Shown in pieces: positions 5,104-48,344 of a DNA stretch of 64,000 bases. The position numbers and the translations under genes are program-made. The DNA lies in the NCBI GenBank assembly GCA_020831625.1, contig JAFIGD010000019.1, positions 1-64,000 on the forward strand, in the 5' to 3' direction. Below the pieces are notes generated by a model that saw only the letters and a list, made by a program, of their open reading frames with translations, had not been told where the DNA came from and ran no database searches. Numbering within the stretch: position 1 is the first letter of the stretch; every line of letters begins with the position of its first letter. This stretch comes from Verrucomicrobiota bacterium. Lineage in GTDB: Bacteria; Verrucomicrobiota; Kiritimatiellia; SS1-B-03-39; UBA6053.

Positions 5104-5886
5104 TCAGATTTCGAGCACAGACCGCAGAAAGTTCCGCGTGCGCTCATGCTCGGGCTGAGTGAAAATGTCGCCGGGTTTGCCGTCCTCCAGAATCACCCCG
5201 TCATCAAAGAAAAGCACCCGGTCGGAGGACTGCTCGGCAAACCGCATGTGGTGGGTGACGATCAGCATGGTCATTTCGCGTTTTTTTCCGAGCCGCGCCA
5301 GCAGGTCGAGGATCCCGCCCACAAGTTCAGGATCGAGGGCGGAAGTGATTTCGTCGAAAAGCATGATTTCAGGATGCATGGCCAGGGCGCGGGCGATGGC
5401 CACCCGCTGTTTTTGGCCCCCGGAAAGCTGGGCCGGATAGGCGTCCGCCTTGTCCGCAAGCCCCACCTCATCCAGATATCGCAGCCCCTCCGCCTTCGCT
5501 TTCTCCCGGGGAACCCCCAGCACATGCACCGGCGCTTCGGTCACATTGCGCAGCACACTCATGTGCGGAAACAGGTTGAAATGCTGGAACACCATGCCGA
5601 TCCGGTTCCGCAGAGCGCGGAACCGGTCCGGAGGGGGAAGCACCGTGCCGCCCTCCGCGTTGACATCATACAAGGCCTCGCCGCCCACCCGCACCCCGCC
5701 GCGCTCCGGCCGCTCCAGGGTCATCAACACCCGCAGCAACGTCGATTTGCCGGACCCGCTGGGCCCAATCACACTGACCATCTCGCCGAGCGGAATATCC
5801 AGATTGATCCCGCGCAGCACTTTCAAATCACCGTAGGATTTGTGCAGGTTCCGGATTTGAATAAAGGGTTCGGCCGTGTTGTTCAT
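5104..5886 (-). CDS. ehuA: ABC importer ATPase, ectoine/polar amino acid type
   Basis: The 260-residue ATPase of a polar amino acid (PAAT) importer has Walker A GPSGSGKST (39-47), the signature LSGGQKQR, Walker B IMLFDEITSALDP and the switch histidine in LIVTHHMRFA. It overlaps the upstream permease gene by 4 bp and ends 54 bp before ectB, so it is co-transcribed with the ectoine genes. Sequence alone only says PAAT family; I assign ectoine/hydroxyectoine uptake (EhuA) from the operon. It would energise the two permeases encoded just upstream. Confidence 0.85.
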   Translation of the reverse strand: MNNTAEPFIQIRNLHKSYGDLKVLRGINLDIPLGEMVSVIGPSGSGKSTLLRVLMTLERPERGGVRVGGEALYDVNAEGGTVLPPPDRFRALRNRIGMVFQHFNLFPHMSVLRNVTEAPVHVLGVPREKAKAEGLRYLDEVGLADKADAYPAQLSGGQKQRVAIARALAMHPEIMLFDEITSALDPELVGGILDLLARLGKKREMTMLIVTHHMRFAEQSSDRVLFFDDGVILEDGKPGDIFTQPEHERTRNFLRSVLEI

Positions 5887-41402: not shown

Positions 41403-41410
41403 ATATTTTT

Positions 41411-41442
41411 AATCTAGAATACTAGATTTTAATCTACTTTTT
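41411..41442 (+). terminator. AT-rich hairpin after the flavoprotein gene
   Basis: AATCTAG (41411-41417), loop AATA and CTAGATT (41422-41428) are followed by TTAATCTACTTTTTT. The stem is weak but well placed, 8 bp after the stop. Confidence 0.5.
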
Positions 41443-41534: not shown

Positions 41535-41551
41535 TTGGCACGCTTCCAGCA
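41535..41551 (+). promoter_or_regulatory. Sigma-54 promoter driving the tRNA-like RNA and slipin remnant
   Basis: TTGGCACGCTTCCAGCA has the obligatory GG (41537-41538) and GC (41549-41550) exactly 10 bp apart, and the full TTGGCACG -24 box. The start point would be near 41562. The -24 half is identical to the rtcA promoter at 45255-45271. RtcR, encoded 2 kb away, is the only sigma-54 activator in the window and the obvious candidate to use it. Confidence 0.7.
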
Positions 41552-41644
41552 TAAAGGGATTCACCGACGCTGCCATCGGCGCGCCTGCCTTCCGGAAACG
41601 GAATCGGCGGGGTGCGTTCCGAAGTGGAGTCCGTCGTCTCAGTC

Positions 41645-41718
41645 TTTGAGTTAGCTCATTCCGGTAGAGCAGAAGATTTCAGAATCTTTGTGTGGCGGGT
41701 TCGAATCCCGCACTCATG
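41645..41718 (+). ncRNA. tRNA-like RNA with an 8-nt anticodon loop
   Basis: The D arm is perfect (GCTC, 9-nt loop ATTCCGGTA, GAGC; 41654-41670), as is the T arm (GCGGG, TTCGAAT, CCCGC; 41695-41711). The anticodon stem GAAGA/TCTTT closes an 8-nt loop TTTCAGAA instead of 7. The variable region is 5 nt. The acceptor pairs only five bases (TGAGT with ACTCA), then mismatches, and no CCA is encoded. It therefore looks like a tRNA mimic or a decayed tRNA, comparable in idea to the tRNA-like domain of bacterial Y RNA (YrlA) in rtc loci. CGC-T-GCCATC upstream (41568-41577) can pair with GATGGCGCG (41750-41758) to enclose it. Confidence 0.6.
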
Positions 41719-41771
41719 CCCTGATACGGCATTATCCCCCCGACGGGTGGATGGCGCGGAGGGATTTCGGC

Positions 41772-41822
41772 CTGCCGGCCGTGAAACGGTTCTTTTCGGA
41801 GACTTCGTTTCATGGCCGGCAG
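41772..41822 (+). promoter_or_regulatory. Hairpin burying the start codon of the slipin remnant
   Basis: CTGCCGGCCGTGAAACG (41772-41788) and CGTTTCATGGCCGGCAG (41806-41822) are inverted repeats with one mismatch and a 17-nt loop. The ATG at 41812 is in the right arm and the GGAG Shine-Dalgarno is in the loop, so translation could be gated by this stem. Confidence 0.55.
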
Positions 41823-42090
41823 CGGCGAACTGCGCTTGCGGTGGAAAGAATGCGAGATCCTCAACCAGGTGATCCTCGCCGGAAAGAAGGCGGAGGCCAA
41901 CGGCATCATGCGCCGCGAGGAAACCGCAGCCATGCGCTCGCAAATGAACACCGCCCGGCTCATCCACGAAAACCCCACCCTCATGCGCCTGCGGGAGCTG
42001 GAAGTGATCGAGCGCATCGCCGAAAACGGAAAGCTGAACGTGGTGCTGGGAGAAAAGGGTCTCGCCGACCGCATCACCCACCTCCTTTAA
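41812..42090 (+). CDS. C-terminal part of a slipin (SPFH/band 7) protein
   Basis: The 92-residue product matches only the end of slipins: EILNQVILAGKKAEANGIMR, then REETAAMRSQMNTARLIHEN and PTLMRLRELEVIERIAEN. The membrane anchor and SPFH domain are absent; no part of them is found upstream, where the tRNA-like RNA lies. The frame is open, has a usable Shine-Dalgarno and ends in a strong terminator, so it may still be expressed as a short coiled-coil protein. Slipins of this type are known neighbours of rtc genes. It is either a deletion remnant or a mini-slipin. Confidence 0.6.
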   Translation: MAGSGELRLRWKECEILNQVILAGKKAEANGIMRREETAAMRSQMNTARLIHENPTLMRLRELEVIERIAENGKLNVVLGEKGLADRITHLL

Positions 42091-42096
42091 CCCCAT

Positions 42097-42128
42097 CCCC
42101 CGCTGCCGAATTCGGCAGCGGGGGTTTT
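42097..42128 (+). terminator. Strong intrinsic terminator after the slipin remnant
   Basis: A perfect 14-bp inverted repeat CCCCCGCTGCCGAA / TTCGGCAGCGGGGG (42097-42124) is followed by TTTT. It closes the sigma-54 transcription unit 6 bp after the stop codon. Confidence 0.85.
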
Positions 42129-42191
42129 ATCGCAGTGCCCTGACCTGTTTTGGAATGCCGCCCACCCCTTTTTTAACTGCTGACGCTTCCC

Positions 42192-42441
42192 TCATGCCCG
42201 TCGCGCACCCTCAATCAAATCCCGCTTGATATCCTCCCAGTTCCGGCCCTGCAAATCACGGGGATCGGGGTCGAGATCCGCATCGTCGAAATATACCAGG
42301 GATTTCTCGAGGTTTCCTACACATGCGCAACGCAAGCGCGGGGCCTCCCACCAGATAAAAGTCCTGCAAAACGTCCATGGACATCAGGCGCTTCAACAGG
42401 GTCATCAGAGCGGGCGGCACCGCGTCGAAACAGAGGTTCAT
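42192..42441 (-). pseudogene. AbiEii-type nucleotidyltransferase, frameshifted
   Basis: The start MNLCFDAVPPALMTLLKRLM then QDFYLVGGPALALRM is a nucleotidyltransferase beginning of the AbiEii/AbiGii toxin type. Near 42310 the frame breaks: the continuation LEKSLVYFDDADLDPDPRDL and NWEDIKRDLIEGARRA reads in another frame to a TGA at 42192. The gene is also much shorter than full-length relatives. Its ATG overlaps the stop of the DUF6922 gene (ATGA), as expected for a toxin-antitoxin pair. It is probably non-functional, unless the shift is a sequencing error. Confidence 0.65.
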
Positions 42442-42746
42442 GCGTCCCAATTTCCGGTTTGTTGAACCGTATAGGCGCGGAAAGCCTCCCGCGGGAGACC
42501 AAACATCACCGCGAAATAGGCGATGGTTTTTTTATGCAGGGATCGGGCCCCCAACAAGGCCTCCCGTATCTCCGCTGGTGAATAAAACGCCCGGGTCAGC
42601 CGCACATCCTCGCGGGAGCCCCGATCCATCACCCGGCAGATCACGAAGCGTTTGTGCCGGGCCGCATCCACCGATGCGGGATCCACATCCCAAAACAGCG
42701 CGGGCGAAAGGTGTTGAAGAAACTCCTGCGTATTCATGTCATTCAT
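42438..42746 (-). CDS. DUF6922-like antitoxin-type protein
   Basis: The 102-residue protein (start MNDMNTQEFLQHL; a start 9 bp later is possible) shows ALFWDVDPASVDAARHKRFV, then RVMDRGSREDVRL and REALLGARSLHKKTIAYFAV. Proteins with this FWD...RFVIxRVxxxG pattern regularly precede AbiEii-like nucleotidyltransferases, exactly as here, and are thought to be their antitoxin partners. With the partner broken, this copy may be a leftover. Confidence 0.7.
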   Translation of the reverse strand: MNDMNTQEFLQHLSPALFWDVDPASVDAARHKRFVICRVMDRGSREDVRLTRAFYSPAEIREALLGARSLHKKTIAYFAVMFGLPREAFRAYTVQQTGNWDA

Positions 42747-42791
42747 TTTACAGGACCCGCACCGTTTCAGCAAGGGATTCGGATATAAATC

Positions 42792-42820
42792 TTGACGGCG
42801 GTCACTGTGTGCGCTAAATT
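42792..42820 (+). promoter_or_regulatory. Promoter of the Phd-PIN pair
   Basis: TTGACG (42792-42797), a 17-bp spacer and TAAATT (42815-42820) lie just before the antitoxin ATG at 42830. A small inverted repeat GCTA...TAGC overlaps the -10 and could be the autoregulatory operator. Confidence 0.5.
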
Positions 42821-42829
42821 TGTAGCACC

Positions 42830-43081
42830 ATGAAAACAGCAACGGTAAGAGACTTGCGTAATCATTATTCAGGACTTCTGGATTGGATTGCAGCGGGCGA
42901 AGAAATCCTCATCACCCGCAGGGGGCGTGTGGTCGCGCGACTTGTACCGGAGTCCGCTGATTCCGGAGAGAAAGCGGATTGGAAGCAGAGTCCGGCCATG
43001 CTTCGAAATCGTTCAGCCTTATCGCTTTCCTCACAACAGGATGTATCAGAGCTGTTGAAACAGAGTGCCGGAAAATGGTGA
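42830..43081 (+). CDS. Phd/YefM-type antitoxin
   Basis: The 83-residue protein begins MKTATVRDLRNHYSGLLDWI, then GEEILITRRGRVVARLVPES, the typical Phd/YefM DNA-binding half. The C-terminal half is polar and toxin-binding. It overlaps the PIN toxin start (ATGGTGA), which ensures coupled translation. As usual for this class the antitoxin comes first. Confidence 0.85.
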   Translation: MKTATVRDLRNHYSGLLDWIAAGEEILITRRGRVVARLVPESADSGEKADWKQSPAMLRNRSALSLSSQQDVSELLKQSAGKW

Positions 43082-43515
43082 CGTGCGCCGACACCAGTTT
43101 CCTTTTTTCGCTGTACGGGAATGATGCCAATACCGCACAGGCCCTGGGCTGGCTACAGGACCATCCTTGCGTGATTACGGTGACCCTCCTGAACGAATTC
43201 GAATTGGAGAACGCCCTTCGCTTTGCTGAATTTAAAAAATTCATCCCACACGAATCTGCGGACCGCTATTGGAAAGACTATCTGAAGGACCGTGATGCGG
43301 GGCGTATCCGCTTGGCCACCTGTAATTTGGCAGATCTGCTCTCCCGCGCTTCCAAATTATCGGAGGAGTGGACGCTCCGGCGGGGACACCGGAGTTTTGA
43401 CATCCTGCATGTAGCCGGTGCATGCATCTGTGAAGCGCAAAAGTTTCTGACCTTCGACAAAAATCAGGTCGACCTTGTTCGTCGTGTTGGCATTACGCCT
43501 TGTCCCGAGGGCTGA
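43075..43515 (+). CDS. PIN-domain toxin (VapC-like ribonuclease)
   Basis: Start at the ATG at 43075 (MVTCADTSFLFSLYG), 146 residues; the longer frame from 42979 only shadows the antitoxin gene. PIN acidic residues are visible: Asp6 in CADTSF, Glu in NEFELENAL and Asp in RSFDILHVAG, plus a late TFDKNQ. VapC-type enzymes cut tRNA or rRNA at single sites. It converges on rtcR (10-bp gap), an RNA-repair regulator. Confidence 0.85.
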   Translation: MVTCADTSFLFSLYGNDANTAQALGWLQDHPCVITVTLLNEFELENALRFAEFKKFIPHESADRYWKDYLKDRDAGRIRLATCNLADLLSRASKLSEEWTLRRGHRSFDILHVAGACICEAQKFLTFDKNQVDLVRRVGITPCPEG

Positions 43516-43525
43516 CGGTCACCCG

Positions 43526-45115
43526 TCACGCCCCCTTCACCATTTCCCAGCTCAGCCCGAATTTGGCGAGGTATTTGCGGATGCGGTCGGAATCGTTTTG
43601 GGTTTGTTTGATTTCGCGCGAGACATCGAAAAGGCGGCGGCCGGCTTCGGCCAGGGAGCGGCAATCCTGACAGACCCTGAGCACGGACTCCAGTTGCAGG
43701 CGGTCGAAGAGGTCGAGCTTCCGGAGCTTCTCCGCGCCGAGCAGCTTTTCCACCGTGGGGGCGGATTCCGGTTTGCGGGAGCCCCAGTGCTGTTGCAGGC
43801 GCTGAATTTCGTCGCGCACCCCCTCCTCGGTGATGCGCCCCTCGGTGGCGAGGGTGGCCATGCGGGTGACGGCAGCGTTGAGATCCCGGAAATTTCCGCG
43901 CCAGCGGGCATCCGGATGCAGGGCGAAATCGAGAAACGCCCTGGAGGCTTCGCGGTTGAAGCGGACACGTTTTCCGCTGCGCTGGGCGATTTGGTTGAGT
44001 TCGTATTCGAGGTTGGGTTCAATGTCCTCTTTGCGTTCGGCCAGTCCGGGAAGCACAAAGGTCCAGAGATGAATGCGGGTGAGCAGATCCTCGCGGAATT
44101 CCCCGCGCTCCACCTGCGCCTGCAAGTCCCGGTTGGTGCCGCAGATGAGCTGGAAGTTGCTCTTGACCGGAGTATCGGCGCCCAGGGGATAGAAGACCTT
44201 CTCCTCCACCGCCCGCAGGAGCATGGCCTGTTCGTCGAGCCCGAGTTCGCCAATTTCGTCGAGGAACAGCATGCCCTTGTTGGCGGCGCGCAACAGACCC
44301 GGCCGATCGGAGGCGGCACCGGTGTAGGCGCCTTTTTTATGACCGAACAATGCGGACATCGCGGCCTGTCCCTGCAGGGTGGCGCAGTTGACCTCCACAA
44401 ACTCTCCGCTCATGCCGCGCCGGTGCACCGCGAGATCGTAGATACGGCGGGCGAGCTGGGATTTGCCCGCCCCGGTGGGGCCCATCAGCAGAATGGGCTC
44501 GGTGGAGCGGATGGCCACCTGCTCGATGCGCGCGATGAGCCGGTTGAAGTCCGGATTCCGGGTGGGGATGCCGGATTTTAAAAAGGAAATGTCGTCGAGG
44601 GCCTGCTGCTCAAAGCGGCTGGCGAGTTGGTCGTAGCGGGCCAGGTCGAGGTCTATGATTTGATAGGTCCCCTCGGGGCCCTGGTTTTTGCGCAGGGCCG
44701 GGGAGGTTTGCAGGAGTTTGGCGGGAAAATGACGGGATTCGGTGAGCAGGAACAGACAGATCTGCATCACATGGCTGCCGGTGGTGATGTGCACCAGATT
44801 CCTGTCCTTCGGATTAAGCTTGAGATCGCGGGCGATGTCGAAGAGCGTGCCGTACACCTCCTGAAAATCCCAGACATCCGACATGTCGGTTTCCAGAACC
44901 TCGACGGCCGTCTCCGGCGACACCGACTGCAAGTCCCCCACCACTTGGTTGGTGAGCTTGTGGAAATTTTTCTGGGTCAGCAACACATACCGGTCCACCA
45001 CGAGGTCCTGCTGTTGGCAAATGGCCACGGAAGGGCGCCACTTGTGCCAGCGGTCCGTGCCCGTGGGGCGGTCCAAGGTGGGGCCCAAGGCCCCGATGAC
45101 AACGGTTTTTGACAT
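43526..45115 (-). CDS. rtcR: Sigma-54 activator of the RNA repair operon
   Basis: The 529-residue protein has an N-terminal CARF-like domain (1-170, MSKTVVIGALGPTLD ... NLVHITTGSHVMQI) that in RtcR binds tRNA ends with 2',3'-cyclic phosphate. The AAA+ domain (about 180-420) has Walker A GPTGAGKS (212-219) and the sigma-54 contact loop GAYTGA (262-267; Tyr instead of the usual Phe). A C-terminal helix-turn-helix follows. It is divergent from rtcAB and should activate the sigma-54 promoter at 45255. Confidence 0.95.
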   Translation of the reverse strand: MSKTVVIGALGPTLDRPTGTDRWHKWRPSVAICQQQDLVVDRYVLLTQKNFHKLTNQVVGDLQSVSPETAVEVLETDMSDVWDFQEVYGTLFDIARDLKLNPKDRNLVHITTGSHVMQICLFLLTESRHFPAKLLQTSPALRKNQGPEGTYQIIDLDLARYDQLASRFEQQALDDISFLKSGIPTRNPDFNRLIARIEQVAIRSTEPILLMGPTGAGKSQLARRIYDLAVHRRGMSGEFVEVNCATLQGQAAMSALFGHKKGAYTGAASDRPGLLRAANKGMLFLDEIGELGLDEQAMLLRAVEEKVFYPLGADTPVKSNFQLICGTNRDLQAQVERGEFREDLLTRIHLWTFVLPGLAERKEDIEPNLEYELNQIAQRSGKRVRFNREASRAFLDFALHPDARWRGNFRDLNAAVTRMATLATEGRITEEGVRDEIQRLQQHWGSRKPESAPTVEKLLGAEKLRKLDLFDRLQLESVLRVCQDCRSLAEAGRRLFDVSREIKQTQNDSDRIRKYLAKFGLSWEMVKGA

Positions 45116-45254
45116 GCTCTTTTCTTTCCGGGTTACGATGAAATTCTATGTTCCTAGACTCAAGGATAGAAAGTGTAAGTCAAAAAAGGAATCTCTTTTT
45201 ATGCTTTTCTTTTAACCCACTGAATGAGAGTTATTTGCAGGTTTACCGGATATT

Positions 45255-45271
45255 TTGGCACGCGCATTGCA
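45255..45271 (+). promoter_or_regulatory. Sigma-54 promoter of rtcAB
   Basis: TTGGCACGCGCATTGCA fits the consensus at every key position, with GG (45257-45258) and GC (45269-45270) 10 bp apart. The start point would be near 45282, only a few bases before the first ATG of rtcA. Upstream activator sites for RtcR should lie in 45116-45230. Confidence 0.85.
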
Positions 45272-45285
45272 ATAGGAAGGTCAGC

Positions 45286-46347
45286 ATGAACAACCAACAA
45301 AACAACATGGATCCCATTGATATCGACGGTTCTCAGGGCGAGGGCGGCGGACAGATTCTGCGCACGGCACTGAGTTTGTCGATGATCACGGGACGAACGG
45401 TTCGTCTGACCCGCATCCGGGCCGGACGGAAAAAGCCCGGACTGCTGCGTCAGCATCTTGCCGCCGTCCGGGCCGCGAAGGACCTGTGTTCCGCACAGGT
45501 GGAAGGAGACCGGCCGGGCAGTGAAGCGCTGACCTTCACGCCCGGACCGGTCGGGCACGGGGATTATCGGGTAGTGATCGGAACCGCCGGCAGCACCTCA
45601 CTGGTGTTGCAGACGGTGTTGCCGGCCATGCTGACCGCGCCGGGTCCGAGCACGATCCACGTGTTCGGTGGCACTCACAATCCCATGAGTCCACCCATCG
45701 AATTTTTGCAACGGAGCTTTCTCCCCCTGTTGAAGCGAATGGGCGCGGAGGTTTCCGTGGAGTTGATTCGTCCCGGCTTCTACCCCGCAGGGGGCGGAGA
45801 GTTGCGCATGACCGCACAGCCCTGCGACAAACTACAGCCCCTGGAATTGAAGCACCGCGGCGGCGTGAAGCGCCGTCAGATCCGGGCGGTCGTTGCCGGT
45901 CTGTCCGAGTCCATCGCCCGCCGCGAGATCAAGGAAGTGCACAGGCATCTGGAGATTCGCGACGTGGAGGTGGAGATCGTCTCCATGAAGGACAGCATCA
46001 GTCCCGGGAATGTGCTGCAACTGATCCTGGAGAGTGACGGGGTGACGGAGGTGTTCACCGCCTTTGGTCAGTTGGGGGTGAGTTCGGAGCAGGTGGCCCG
46101 CGACGTCTGCAAGCAGGCGCAGAAGTATTTGGCCGCGGACGTGCCCGTGGGCCGTTTTCTGGCCGATCAACTGCTGCTGCCCTTCGCAATGGCGGGGGGC
46201 GGACGCTTCCGCACCCTGCGTCCCTCCGGTCATACTCTCACCAATATCCAGGTGATCGAACGTTTTTTGCCGGTGTCCTTCCGGGTGGAAAAACTGGGCG
46301 ACGGCATGGTGGATCTTTTTGTGGAACCCAAAGGAGAAAAATCATGA
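45286..46347 (+). CDS. rtcA: RNA 3'-terminal phosphate cyclase
   Basis: RtcA converts RNA 3'-phosphate to 2',3'-cyclic phosphate through a covalent RtcA-His-AMP. The 353-residue protein has IDGSQGEGGGQILRTALSLS, IRAGRKKPGLLRQHL, GTHNPMSPPIEFLQR, RPGFYPAGGGE and the C-terminal HTLTNIQVIERFLP with the nucleotidylated His. Because the predicted transcript begins at about 45282, translation starts either almost leaderless at 45286 or at the ATG at 45307 (MDPIDIDGSQ). It overlaps rtcB by 4 bp. Confidence 0.95.
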   Translation: MNNQQNNMDPIDIDGSQGEGGGQILRTALSLSMITGRTVRLTRIRAGRKKPGLLRQHLAAVRAAKDLCSAQVEGDRPGSEALTFTPGPVGHGDYRVVIGTAGSTSLVLQTVLPAMLTAPGPSTIHVFGGTHNPMSPPIEFLQRSFLPLLKRMGAEVSVELIRPGFYPAGGGELRMTAQPCDKLQPLELKHRGGVKRRQIRAVVAGLSESIARREIKEVHRHLEIRDVEVEIVSMKDSISPGNVLQLILESDGVTEVFTAFGQLGVSSEQVARDVCKQAQKYLAADVPVGRFLADQLLLPFAMAGGGRFRTLRPSGHTLTNIQVIERFLPVSFRVEKLGDGMVDLFVEPKGEKS

Positions 46348-47738
46348 AAGAAAAACACTTGAGATTTCACGGCATTCCCGCGGAGTGCAACGAAGTGGCC
46401 ATGGTCGCCTGCAAAGCCTGGACGGCGGCGGGAAAAGACGACCGCGAGCTGGGACTCCTGCTGAAGACGATGGCCCGAAACGCGGAACCGTTTCTGCGTC
46501 ACGAACTGCTGGGGGATCTGGCGGCGGCGATGTGGGAGGTACAGGCAAAGCAGCGCGAGGACATGGCGGTGTACGAACCCAAGCCCTGGCACCAGTGGGG
46601 CACGGATATCGAGGGCACGTCCATCGACCAAATGAAAAACGCGGTGAAGCTGCCGGTGGCGGTGCGCGGGGCGCTGATGCCCGACGCGCATCTGGGATAC
46701 GGTCTGCCCATCGGCGGGGTGCTGGCCACCCGCAACGCGGTGATCCCCTACGCGGTGGGGGTCGATATCGCCTGCCGCATGAAAATGACGGTGCTGGATC
46801 TGCCCGCATCGGCGCTGGCCACCCACGAGAAAAAACTGGTCGAGGCGATCCACAGGGAAACCCGCTTCGGCATGGGCGCGCGCTTTGAAGACAAACGCGA
46901 ACATGCGGTTATGGATGCCGACTGGTCGGTGAGTCCCGTGACCCAACAGTTCAAAAACAAAGCCTGGGCGCAGTTGGGGACCAGCGGGAGCGGCAACCAC
47001 TTTGTGGAGTTTGGCGTGCTGACCCTCGATGCCCCCGATTTGGGACTGGAGGCGGGGCGCTATCTGGCTATGCTGTCGCACAGCGGCAGCCGGGGAACCG
47101 GCGCGCAGGTGGCCGCCCACTACAGCCGTCTGGCCATGGACGCGCATCCCGAACTCCCCAAACCGCTCAAACACCTGGCCTGGCTGGATCTCGACAGCGA
47201 TGCCGGTCAGGAATACTGGGCCGCCATGAGCCTGATGGGGCAGTATGCCGCCGCCAACCACGCCTGCATTCACCGCGCCATCGCGTCGCGTCTCGGCGCG
47301 GAAGTGCTGCTGGATCTGGAAAACCATCACAACTACGCCTGGAAAGAAACTCACGACGGCGAGGAGGTGATCGTGCACCGCAAAGGGGCCACGCCGGCGG
47401 GGGAAGGCGTGCTCGGCATCATTCCCGGCAGCATGGCCGACCCCGGCTTTGTGGTGCGCGGTAAAGGAAGTGTTTATGCGCTCGACTCCGCCTCGCACGG
47501 AGCCGGACGCCGCATGAGCCGCACCGCCGCCGCCAAGAAATTCAAGAACCTCAACCCCGAGGCCGAACTGAAAAAGCGGGGAGTCAAGCTGCTCTCCGCC
47601 GGACTGGACGAACTCCCGATGTGCTACAAAAACATTGAGGAGGTCATGGCCGCCCAGGCCGATCTGGTCGACATCGTGGCCCGCTTTGACCCCAAACTGG
47701 TGAAAATGGCTCCCGCTGGCGAAAAACCGGAGGATTGA
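46344..47738 (+). CDS. rtcB: RNA-splicing / tRNA repair ligase
   Basis: RtcB joins 2',3'-cyclic phosphate and 5'-OH RNA ends using GTP and Mn2+. The 464-residue protein shows PDAHLGYGLPIGGVLAT, GVDIACRM with the metal Cys, LGTSGSGNHFVEF, LSHSGSRGTG and HRKGATPAGEGVLGIIPGSM with the guanylylated His. The length is slightly above E. coli RtcB. It is translated with rtcA. No archease gene is in the window, as expected for an E. coli-type RtcB. Confidence 0.96.
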   Translation: MKEKHLRFHGIPAECNEVAMVACKAWTAAGKDDRELGLLLKTMARNAEPFLRHELLGDLAAAMWEVQAKQREDMAVYEPKPWHQWGTDIEGTSIDQMKNAVKLPVAVRGALMPDAHLGYGLPIGGVLATRNAVIPYAVGVDIACRMKMTVLDLPASALATHEKKLVEAIHRETRFGMGARFEDKREHAVMDADWSVSPVTQQFKNKAWAQLGTSGSGNHFVEFGVLTLDAPDLGLEAGRYLAMLSHSGSRGTGAQVAAHYSRLAMDAHPELPKPLKHLAWLDLDSDAGQEYWAAMSLMGQYAAANHACIHRAIASRLGAEVLLDLENHHNYAWKETHDGEEVIVHRKGATPAGEGVLGIIPGSMADPGFVVRGKGSVYALDSASHGAGRRMSRTAAAKKFKNLNPEAELKKRGVKLLSAGLDELPMCYKNIEEVMAAQADLVDIVARFDPKLVKMAPAGEKPED

Positions 47739-47904: not shown

Positions 47905-47937
47905 TTGACATGCCGGGATAATTGGACAATTGTACAA
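47905..47937 (+). promoter_or_regulatory. Promoter and palindromic operator of the PIN toxin-antitoxin pair
   Basis: TTGACA (47905-47910) with a 17-bp spacer leads to AATTGT (47928-47933), which lies inside the palindrome TTGGACAATTGTACAA (47922-47937). The ATG follows 2 bp later, so the message is nearly leaderless and repressor binding would block the -10 box. Autoregulation by the toxin-antitoxin complex is likely. Confidence 0.6.
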
Positions 47938-47939
47938 GT

Positions 47940-48344
47940 ATGAAGAGTGAATCCATACTTGTTGATGCGTCTGCTGTTTTGGCCGTGCTTCTCGAAGAGC
48001 CTGAAAAATCATCGATTCTTGACGCGACAGTTGGCTGTGAAGCGAAGGTGCCGGGATGTCTGCGTTGGGAAATTGGAAACGCCTTTTCCGCAATGGTCAA
48101 ACGCGGCAGGCTTGAAGAACAAGACACTATTGCCGCATTACGAATTTTCGAAACCATTCCGGTTCAGGAAGTGGATGTGAACCTGGAAGACGCGCTTTCC
48201 CTGGCAGCCAAACACCAGATTTACGCATATGATGCGTACTATTTGGTGGCGGCAAAAAAACACAGGTTGGCGTTGTTGACTCTGGATGGAAGAATGAATG
48301 ATGTCGCCAGAGCGGAAGGAATCAGCCTAAAGGAGATCGTATGA
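47940..48344 (+). CDS. PIN-domain toxin (VapC-like), toxin-first gene order
   Basis: The 134-residue protein (ATG at 47940) shows SILVDASAVLAVLLEEPEKS with the first Asp, LRWEIGNAF with Glu, YAYDAYYLVAAKKHRLALLTLD with the late acidic pair, and MNDVARAEGI. It resembles VapC of the type that cleaves tRNA or rRNA. The partner antitoxin follows with a 4-bp overlap, the reverse of the usual order and of the first pair in this window. Confidence 0.85.
   Translation: MKSESILVDASAVLAVLLEEPEKSSILDATVGCEAKVPGCLRWEIGNAFSAMVKRGRLEEQDTIAALRIFETIPVQEVDVNLEDALSLAAKHQIYAYDAYYLVAAKKHRLALLTLDGRMNDVARAEGISLKEIV

Follow-up and report, generated by a model that had tools for sequence, protein, structure and literature searches.

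The window analysed here comprises positions 1 to 64,000 of contig JAFIGD010000019.1 from a Verrucomicrobiota bacterium (GenBank assembly GCA_020831625.1; 4.9 Mb in 111 contigs) and contains a structured RNA, folded around a tRNA-like core and situated between a sigma-54 promoter and the remnant of a slipin gene. The RNA belongs to an uncatalogued family: structured leaders, upstream of slipin genes, into which a tRNA mimic is built. The layout of the family is a 5' domain, the tRNA-like core, hairpins and a 3' domain. At the window locus, the following features are found:

41535..41551, plus strand: sigma-54 (-24/-12) promoter, TTGGCACG-CTTC-CAGCA, from a scan; transcription start expected near 41562.
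41572..41627, plus strand: conserved 5' domain enclosing a variable arm (covariance model R1, window excluded; covariation in relatives), with helices CCA 41573-41575/TGG 41625-41627, CGG 41577-41579/CCG 41619-41621 and CGCGCC 41580-41585/GGTGCG 41611-41616.
41590..41603, plus strand: hairpin TTCCG-GAAA-CGGAA at the tip of the 5'-domain variable arm (sequence and minimum free energy (MFE) folding).
41647..41716, plus strand: tRNA-like core with truncated acceptor, D arm, anticodon arm and T arm, CCA not encoded (ARAGORN, Rfam, sequence).
41717..41731, plus strand: hairpin TGCC-CTGATAC-GGCA, abutting the 3' strand of the acceptor (aligned sequences).
41739..41754, plus strand: conserved block CCCGACGGGTGGATGG, which aligns with GCCtGAgGGnGGCG of relatives (leader alignment).
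41772..41822, plus strand: long hairpin CTGCCGGCCGTGAAACG / CGTTTCATGGCCGGCAG (MFE; a hairpin at the same place in the related loci L019 and L020).
41812..42090, plus strand: slipin (Band 7/SPFH) gene remnant, the last ~90 of 373 residues only.
42097..42129, plus strand: terminator-like hairpin CCCCCGCTGCCGAATTCGGCAGCGGGGG followed by a T run (sequence).

An original prediction, made from the letters of this stretch, had proposed that the tRNA-like core is part of a structured RNA and is not a translating tRNA, and its description of the core is borne out by the sequence. The D stem (41654-41657/41667-41670) and the T arm (41695-41711) are intact, the acceptor (TGAGT 41647-41651/ACTCA 41712-41716) ends after 5 bp, with T-T and T-G at the next positions, and no CCA is encoded. 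The anticodon stem (GAAGA 41672-41676/TCTTT 41685-41689) encloses an 8-nt loop, TTTCAGAA, at 41677-41684. The element thus has neither the 7-bp acceptor nor the anticodon loop (7 nt, U33, usable anticodon) expected of a functional tRNA. The anticodon arm can pair further (AAGATT-TCAG-AATCTT), a closure that single-sequence MFE folding adopts, and in the family loop parse the window loop was counted as 6 nt, the stem being extendable by one pair. ARAGORN reports a tRNA-like element at 41645-41721 with an “anticodon” of two bases and cannot name its type, and the 41.1 bits obtained for 41647-41716 with the Rfam tRNA model are the weakest among the genome's 43 tRNA matches. This weak match, next to a truncated slipin gene, would be in line with an ordinary tRNA gene that has decayed or been mis-sequenced, an explanation that is taken up below with the relatives. 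The window RNA runs past the long hairpin to about 41845, and the predicted 284-nt RNA (41562-41845) has a folding z of -4.3; both the cloverleaf and the 5' helices conserved in relatives appear in its unconstrained MFE structure.

Relatives were collected by a slipin-alignment scan of genome contigs, which yielded 80 loci from several phyla (labelled L below); those from the family of the window are Verrucomicrobia metagenome-assembled genomes. A slipin-proximal tRNA-like element was found directly in 64 of the 80 loci by pattern search and inspection, and one further element (L090) was added by eye; in the others, the upstream sequence is missing. The elements, counted overall in 66 of the 80 loci, occur in Verrucomicrobia, Planctomycetes, Desulfobacterota, Acidobacteria and other phyla, at a roughly fixed distance of 340-780 nt upstream of slipin; Pelagicoccus mobilis, Blastopirellula marina and Adhaeretor mobilis are cultured members. 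Aligning 66 leaders, that of the window among them, reveals conserved blocks 5' of the mimic (CCaGCGGCGC and GtGTTCCG..atGGgtTcTgAcg) and 3' of it (GCCtgagGG.ggcGg, CGGCAgCA, CCnTGcAGtgcGcGGATaCCGc and gCTcAAgc..cgCTCCGc). In the closest RtcR-bearing relative (L009/L019) the order is sigma-54 site, tRNA-like element, full slipin, rtcR, rtcA and rtcB; its acceptor is TGAGT/ACTCA as in the window, but it has a 7-nt loop, TTTGGGT. In two loci a tandem pair of tRNA-like units occupies one leader (L045, 5445-5526 and 5531-5595; L025, upstream of 5532).

For the 5' domain, a covariance model (R1) of the kind that the original prediction had proposed to build from relatives was made from 37 sequences, the window being excluded. 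In the window it matches 41549-41650, scoring 34.5 bits (E 2e-7), and the runner-up there scores 12 bits. The match is the best in the bacterium's own genome. A second candidate copy in that genome (L100, 22.9 bits, E 0.02) falls in what looks like coding sequence, away from any tRNA-like element, and was taken as chance. Of 39 loci outside the training set, 31 were matched at an E of at most 0.1, and each match lies upstream of slipin in plus orientation. Across the phylum, R1 matches occur in 5 of 388 genomes, and all five have rtcR, which is present in 64 of the 388 overall. In L085 (Zixibacteria, 5520-5620), the mimic is strongly degenerate, yet the 5' domain is good (44 bits).

The fold of the 5' domain is supported by covariation: its 12 pairs are formed in 94% of cells, 8 pairs show changes on both sides, a signal reached in 0 of 500 shuffles, and the covariation is lost when the partner strand is slid. 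The CCA/TGG helix switches from A-U to G-C, i.e., to CCG/CGG, in 11 of 37 relatives and is therefore the conserved use of the GCCA letters that the original prediction had assigned to a long-range GCCATC/GATGGC stem enclosing the core. The complementary letters of that outer stem are present, but as a conserved fold it was rejected: its complement is invariant in three close relatives and so cannot covary, and its GCCA is used by the covarying local helix. The GAAA hairpin predicted upstream of the core is likewise present, but the GAAA tetraloop is not conserved; the variable arm recurs in L019 and L020 with different loops. The proposed extent of 41562-41760 contains the core of the window element, while the unit in relatives reaches well beyond it. 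Counterparts of the hairpin at 41717..41731 are TGTC..GACA in L020 and TGAC..GTCA in L019.

Within the tRNA-like core, the D, anticodon and T stems of the family are 99.5-100% paired with compensatory change (a covariation reached in 0 of 500 shuffles), the D and T arms of tRNA type being paired in 100% of cells. From the inside outward, the acceptor pairs are formed in 100, 95, 90, 68, 51, 29 and 27% of sequences, the outer pairs being at chance level; the stem is therefore kept at 3-4 inner pairs and then given up. Ordinary array tRNAs of the same slipin loci served as a control: seven of seven acceptor pairs are formed in 2/39 slipin-proximal elements vs 234/300 array tRNAs, U33 is present in 22/35 vs 266/298, and A34, seen in 14/49 mimics, is nearly absent from the array tRNAs. 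Most relatives do carry the normal 7-nt loop, but the full acceptor, named beside it in the original prediction as the sign of an ordinary tRNA, is not found in them. The decayed or mis-sequenced tRNA gene fails because relatives share the truncated acceptor and lose U33 and anticodon identity; with the same truncated acceptor and altered loop in dozens of genomes, compensatory changes and conserved flanks, this explanation is refuted for the family and retains next to no probability. Judged by these sequence features, the slipin-proximal element is a tRNA mimic and not a translating tRNA.

The 8-nt loop, which the original prediction had singled out, is true of the window but represents one form of a loop that is hypervariable and measures 5-8 nt, mostly 7. 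Among 49 seven-nt mimic loops, 23 anticodons occur, and U33 is kept in 33/49. Pairs of mimics that differ by ~0.08 outside the anticodon loop already show a mean loop divergence of 0.50, with little rise at greater distance, in an alignment of moderate size and related sequences. A complement of the anticodon loop inside the leader was not found beyond chance, and a loop-leader pseudoknot was rejected, as 6 six-nt complements were observed vs 4.6 expected from swapped loops. The exposed loop might instead pair with an outside target, such as an mRNA or a tRNA anticodon loop, its variability reflecting target choice. Such a guide RNA would fit a loop that varies in sequence at a length of mostly 7 nt, and “substrate or guide” was suggested for the Pelobacter copy by Aklujkar et al. 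(PMC3543383); however, the loops keep tRNA-like preferences at positions 32, 37 and 38 that a free guide would not need, which makes this reading improbable. A cis-acting sensor, in which cutting or protein binding of the leader element alters the stability or translation of the slipin message and the RNA is not a free bait, would be in line with the roughly fixed position before slipin and the conserved domains on either side. It appears unlikely, given that the leader offers the loop no pairing partner and that the window RNA is still recognisable though most of its slipin is gone.

In the window, only residues 284-373 of slipin remain, and the remainder is found nowhere in the genome, so that the intact downstream slipin typical of the family is lacking. 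The start of the remnant open reading frame (ORF) is probably not genuine, since the ATG of 41812..42090 falls within the 17-bp hairpin at 41772..41822.

Downstream of the remnant lies an RNA-repair locus:

43526..45115, minus strand: rtcR, CARF domain plus sigma-54 activator (Pfam RtcR 3.9e-71, Sigma54_activat 3e-48).
45255..45271, plus strand: rtcAB sigma-54 promoter, perfect consensus, TTGGCACG-CGCA-TTGCA (scan).
45286..46347, plus strand: rtcA, RNA 3'-terminal phosphate cyclase (Pfam RTC 9.8e-79).
46344..47738, plus strand: rtcB, RNA ligase (Pfam RtcB 2.7e-88).

In the RtcR-linked branch, which includes the window, the RNA stands behind a sigma-54 promoter in an RtcR/RtcA/RtcB RNA-repair neighbourhood. 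Of the promoter and its link to RtcR, both part of the original prediction, the first is confirmed and the second supported: the site at 41535-41551 (TTGGCACG-N4-CAGCA) has the cloverleaf 116 bp downstream, and a sigma-54 promoter beside rtcR, the mark of an RtcR regulon, is present in the window. A sigma-54 site precedes the mimic in all 11 RtcR-linked members (window included), at a distance of 112-233 bp, whereas array-type loci have one in 1/56 cases and random segments in 6.5%; the sites of L036 and L090 are imperfect at -12. The divergent arrangement rtcR - RNA - slipin - rtcA - rtcB is found in L026, L028, L031, L036, L045 and L050. CTAG/ATAG repeats spaced ~10 bp apart lie upstream of sigma-54 promoters in the window (41410-41430 and 45150-45170), L036 and L050, and are possible binding sites for RtcR. 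The two window promoters were also compared for shared upstream activator sites, but the common words were only AT-rich stretches and the promoter itself, and this comparison was not used as evidence.

Several further genes accompany these loci. The rtc locus of the window is flanked by two PIN-domain proteins (42979-43515 and 47922-48344); VapC toxins are PIN proteins and cut tRNA anticodon loops. A DUF6922 protein is encoded at 42438-42842, and in the same-genus genome G001 (L008, 667-1574) a DUF6922 protein lies next to an rtcR-adjacent gene product that, judged by eye, resembles an AbiEii-like nucleotidyltransferase. RlaP (PF10127), a nucleotidyltransferase of RNA repair, is encoded immediately after slipin in Adhaeretor mobilis (L074:7085-8101), and in L019 and L050 it lies beyond rtcB.

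In loci of Planctomycetes and Candidatus Lindowbacteria that have no rtcR close by (L024, L033, L048, L052, L064, L067, L069, L074 and L098), arrays of up to ~28 ordinary tRNA genes lead straight into the mimic-slipin unit, resembling the inducible tRNA array of Anabaena. There, the repressor TrcR co-represses the tRNA array, rtcB and a slipin (PMC10272220). The element could accordingly be thought of as a backup tRNA for translation under stress, as tandem ordinary-tRNA arrays precede it in many loci. With its defective acceptor, its A34 and non-U33 anticodons and, in most cases, no CCA, it fits this role poorly; the role suits the array tRNAs and is highly improbable for the slipin-proximal element. 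The Anabaena regulon shares the trio of tRNA array, slipin and RtcB under one stress regulator, but it relies on a repressor and a sigma-70-type promoter and lacks rtcR, and a tRNA-mimic leader RNA was not reported for it (PMC10272220).

Among known RNAs, the closest counterpart is the “mutant tRNA” Pcar_R0061 of Pelobacter carbinolicus, compared here by its published description rather than its sequence: a single tRNA-like element between divergent rtcR and slipin-rtcA-rtcB, with a defective acceptor and an altered anticodon (CAG, A33). Its authors considered it not to be a pseudogene and suggested that it may be a substrate or guide for RNA-active enzymes (PMC3543383). It was, however, published as a one-off mutant tRNA-Asn, and surrounding RNA domains, a family and a hypervariable loop were not reported (PMC3543383). 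YrlA, the Y RNA of rsr-yrlBA-rtcBA operons (PMC7790460; RF02553), is likewise a tRNA-mimicking noncoding RNA of an RtcR-controlled repair operon, but the present family is partnered by slipin instead of Ro60/Rsr, and other domains surround its tRNA-like element. The YrlA-like identity considered in the original prediction was rejected: RF02553 has no match at the locus (E up to 10), and its best score in the whole genome, elsewhere, is 18 bits against a gathering score of 69. Among the annotated neighbours in the window, to which this check was confined, Ro60/Rsr does not appear. In an Rfam 15 scan of the window and 10 relatives, tRNA was the sole family to reach threshold, GOLLD and ROOL being unmatched. 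Within the literature that could be searched, the RNA family, its flanking domains and its variable loop are undescribed beyond the Pelobacter copy and the Anabaena regulon, and in this scope the novelty applies to the RNA class; a tRNA mimic in an RtcR operon already has YrlA as an analogue.

By analogy with GOLLD, ROOL and OLE, the RNA might serve as a scaffold, either in a membrane assembly with slipin or in a cage, the tRNA fold acting as a docking handle for RtcB, RtcA or RtcR. GOLLD and ROOL are large structured RNAs near tRNA islands, and GOLLD sometimes carries tRNAs in a linker; they are phage-borne, whereas in the slipin-leader RNA the mimic is a fixed core element (PMC12286853). The RNA described here is also large, multi-domain and highly conserved, and in Planctomycetes it accompanies tRNA arrays, a setting shared by GOLLD of phages and mycobacteria (PMC12286853). 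This reading leaves the hypervariability of the anticodon loop alone unexplained, and no Rfam match to any GOLLD/ROOL/OLE-like family was obtained; it seems quite unlikely.

In Salmonella, RtcR binds 5' tRNA halves with 2',3'-cyclic phosphate ends through its CARF domain and oligomerises, and colicin D and VapC activate it (PMC7790460). The tRNA-like YrlA of the RtcR operon has been proposed as a competitive inhibitor of an anticodon nuclease (PMC7790460). It is plausible that the slipin-leader RNA is a putative ligand or substrate in the RtcR pathway. We tentatively favour, at a little under even confidence, a stress-induced tRNA mimic that, as part of the RtcR response, baits or senses anticodon nucleases, because a variable loop on a conserved scaffold fits a bait best. 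In this mechanism, tRNA breakage would lead RtcR to turn on the mimic transcript, which would be unchargeable, lacking full acceptor and CCA, and would not be built for decoding, as U33 and anticodon identity are not kept. Because it would be neither chargeable nor built to decode, the mimic could be cut harmlessly and might act as bait for nucleases that cleave tRNA anticodon loops. The fragments produced may supply or modulate the signal for RtcR, or RtcB may reseal them, and fast change of the anticodon loop on a conserved scaffold would mirror a race with changing nucleases.

Several observations weigh against the bait. YrlA itself is not cut by the nuclease in Salmonella (PMC7790460), and the 33/49 mimic loops with U33, along with mostly purine 37 and A38, resemble real tRNAs. 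Any repair gene within 6 kb was found in only 13 of 64 loci with enough flank, and most members (Planctomycetes) are without RtcR/RtcAB over that distance; the bait idea must therefore work outside RtcR control or be special to the RtcR branch. The same-genus genome G001 (L008) has rtcR-rtcA-rtcB and no R1 match, its contig ending near the locus. Moreover, the window copy may be only partly functional, as most of its slipin is lost and a model of the 3' domain (CGGCAGCA...CTGCAGTGCGCGGATACCGC; R2) leaves it unmatched. R2 also fails to match L019 and L020, which form family f1 with the window, and the exact pattern of the f1 tRNA-like element gave zero matches in the collection of genome contigs. 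As far as sequence comparison can tell, the 3' half is divergent in this family, while the 5' half and the mimic of the window are intact.

The slipin-leader RNA exposes a blind spot of RNA discovery: at least one published pipeline split intergenic regions at annotated tRNAs (PMC2864571), a procedure that would divide, and so overlook, any RNA with a tRNA fold at its centre. The signal read by RtcR, broken tRNAs, is known; the family bears on the other products of the RtcR regulon and on why slipin, a membrane protein, accompanies RNA repair. It is possible, with somewhat more reserve than for the bait in the RtcR response, that the family represents a new ornate-RNA class in which a hypervariable, non-decoding anticodon arm serves as an evolving nuclease bait or sensor, wired by phylum either to RtcR/RtcAB or to slipin and inducible tRNA arrays. 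If true, a mimic whose anticodon loop is the sole fast-evolving part would show directly, at the level of genomes, a race with nucleases that cut anticodons.
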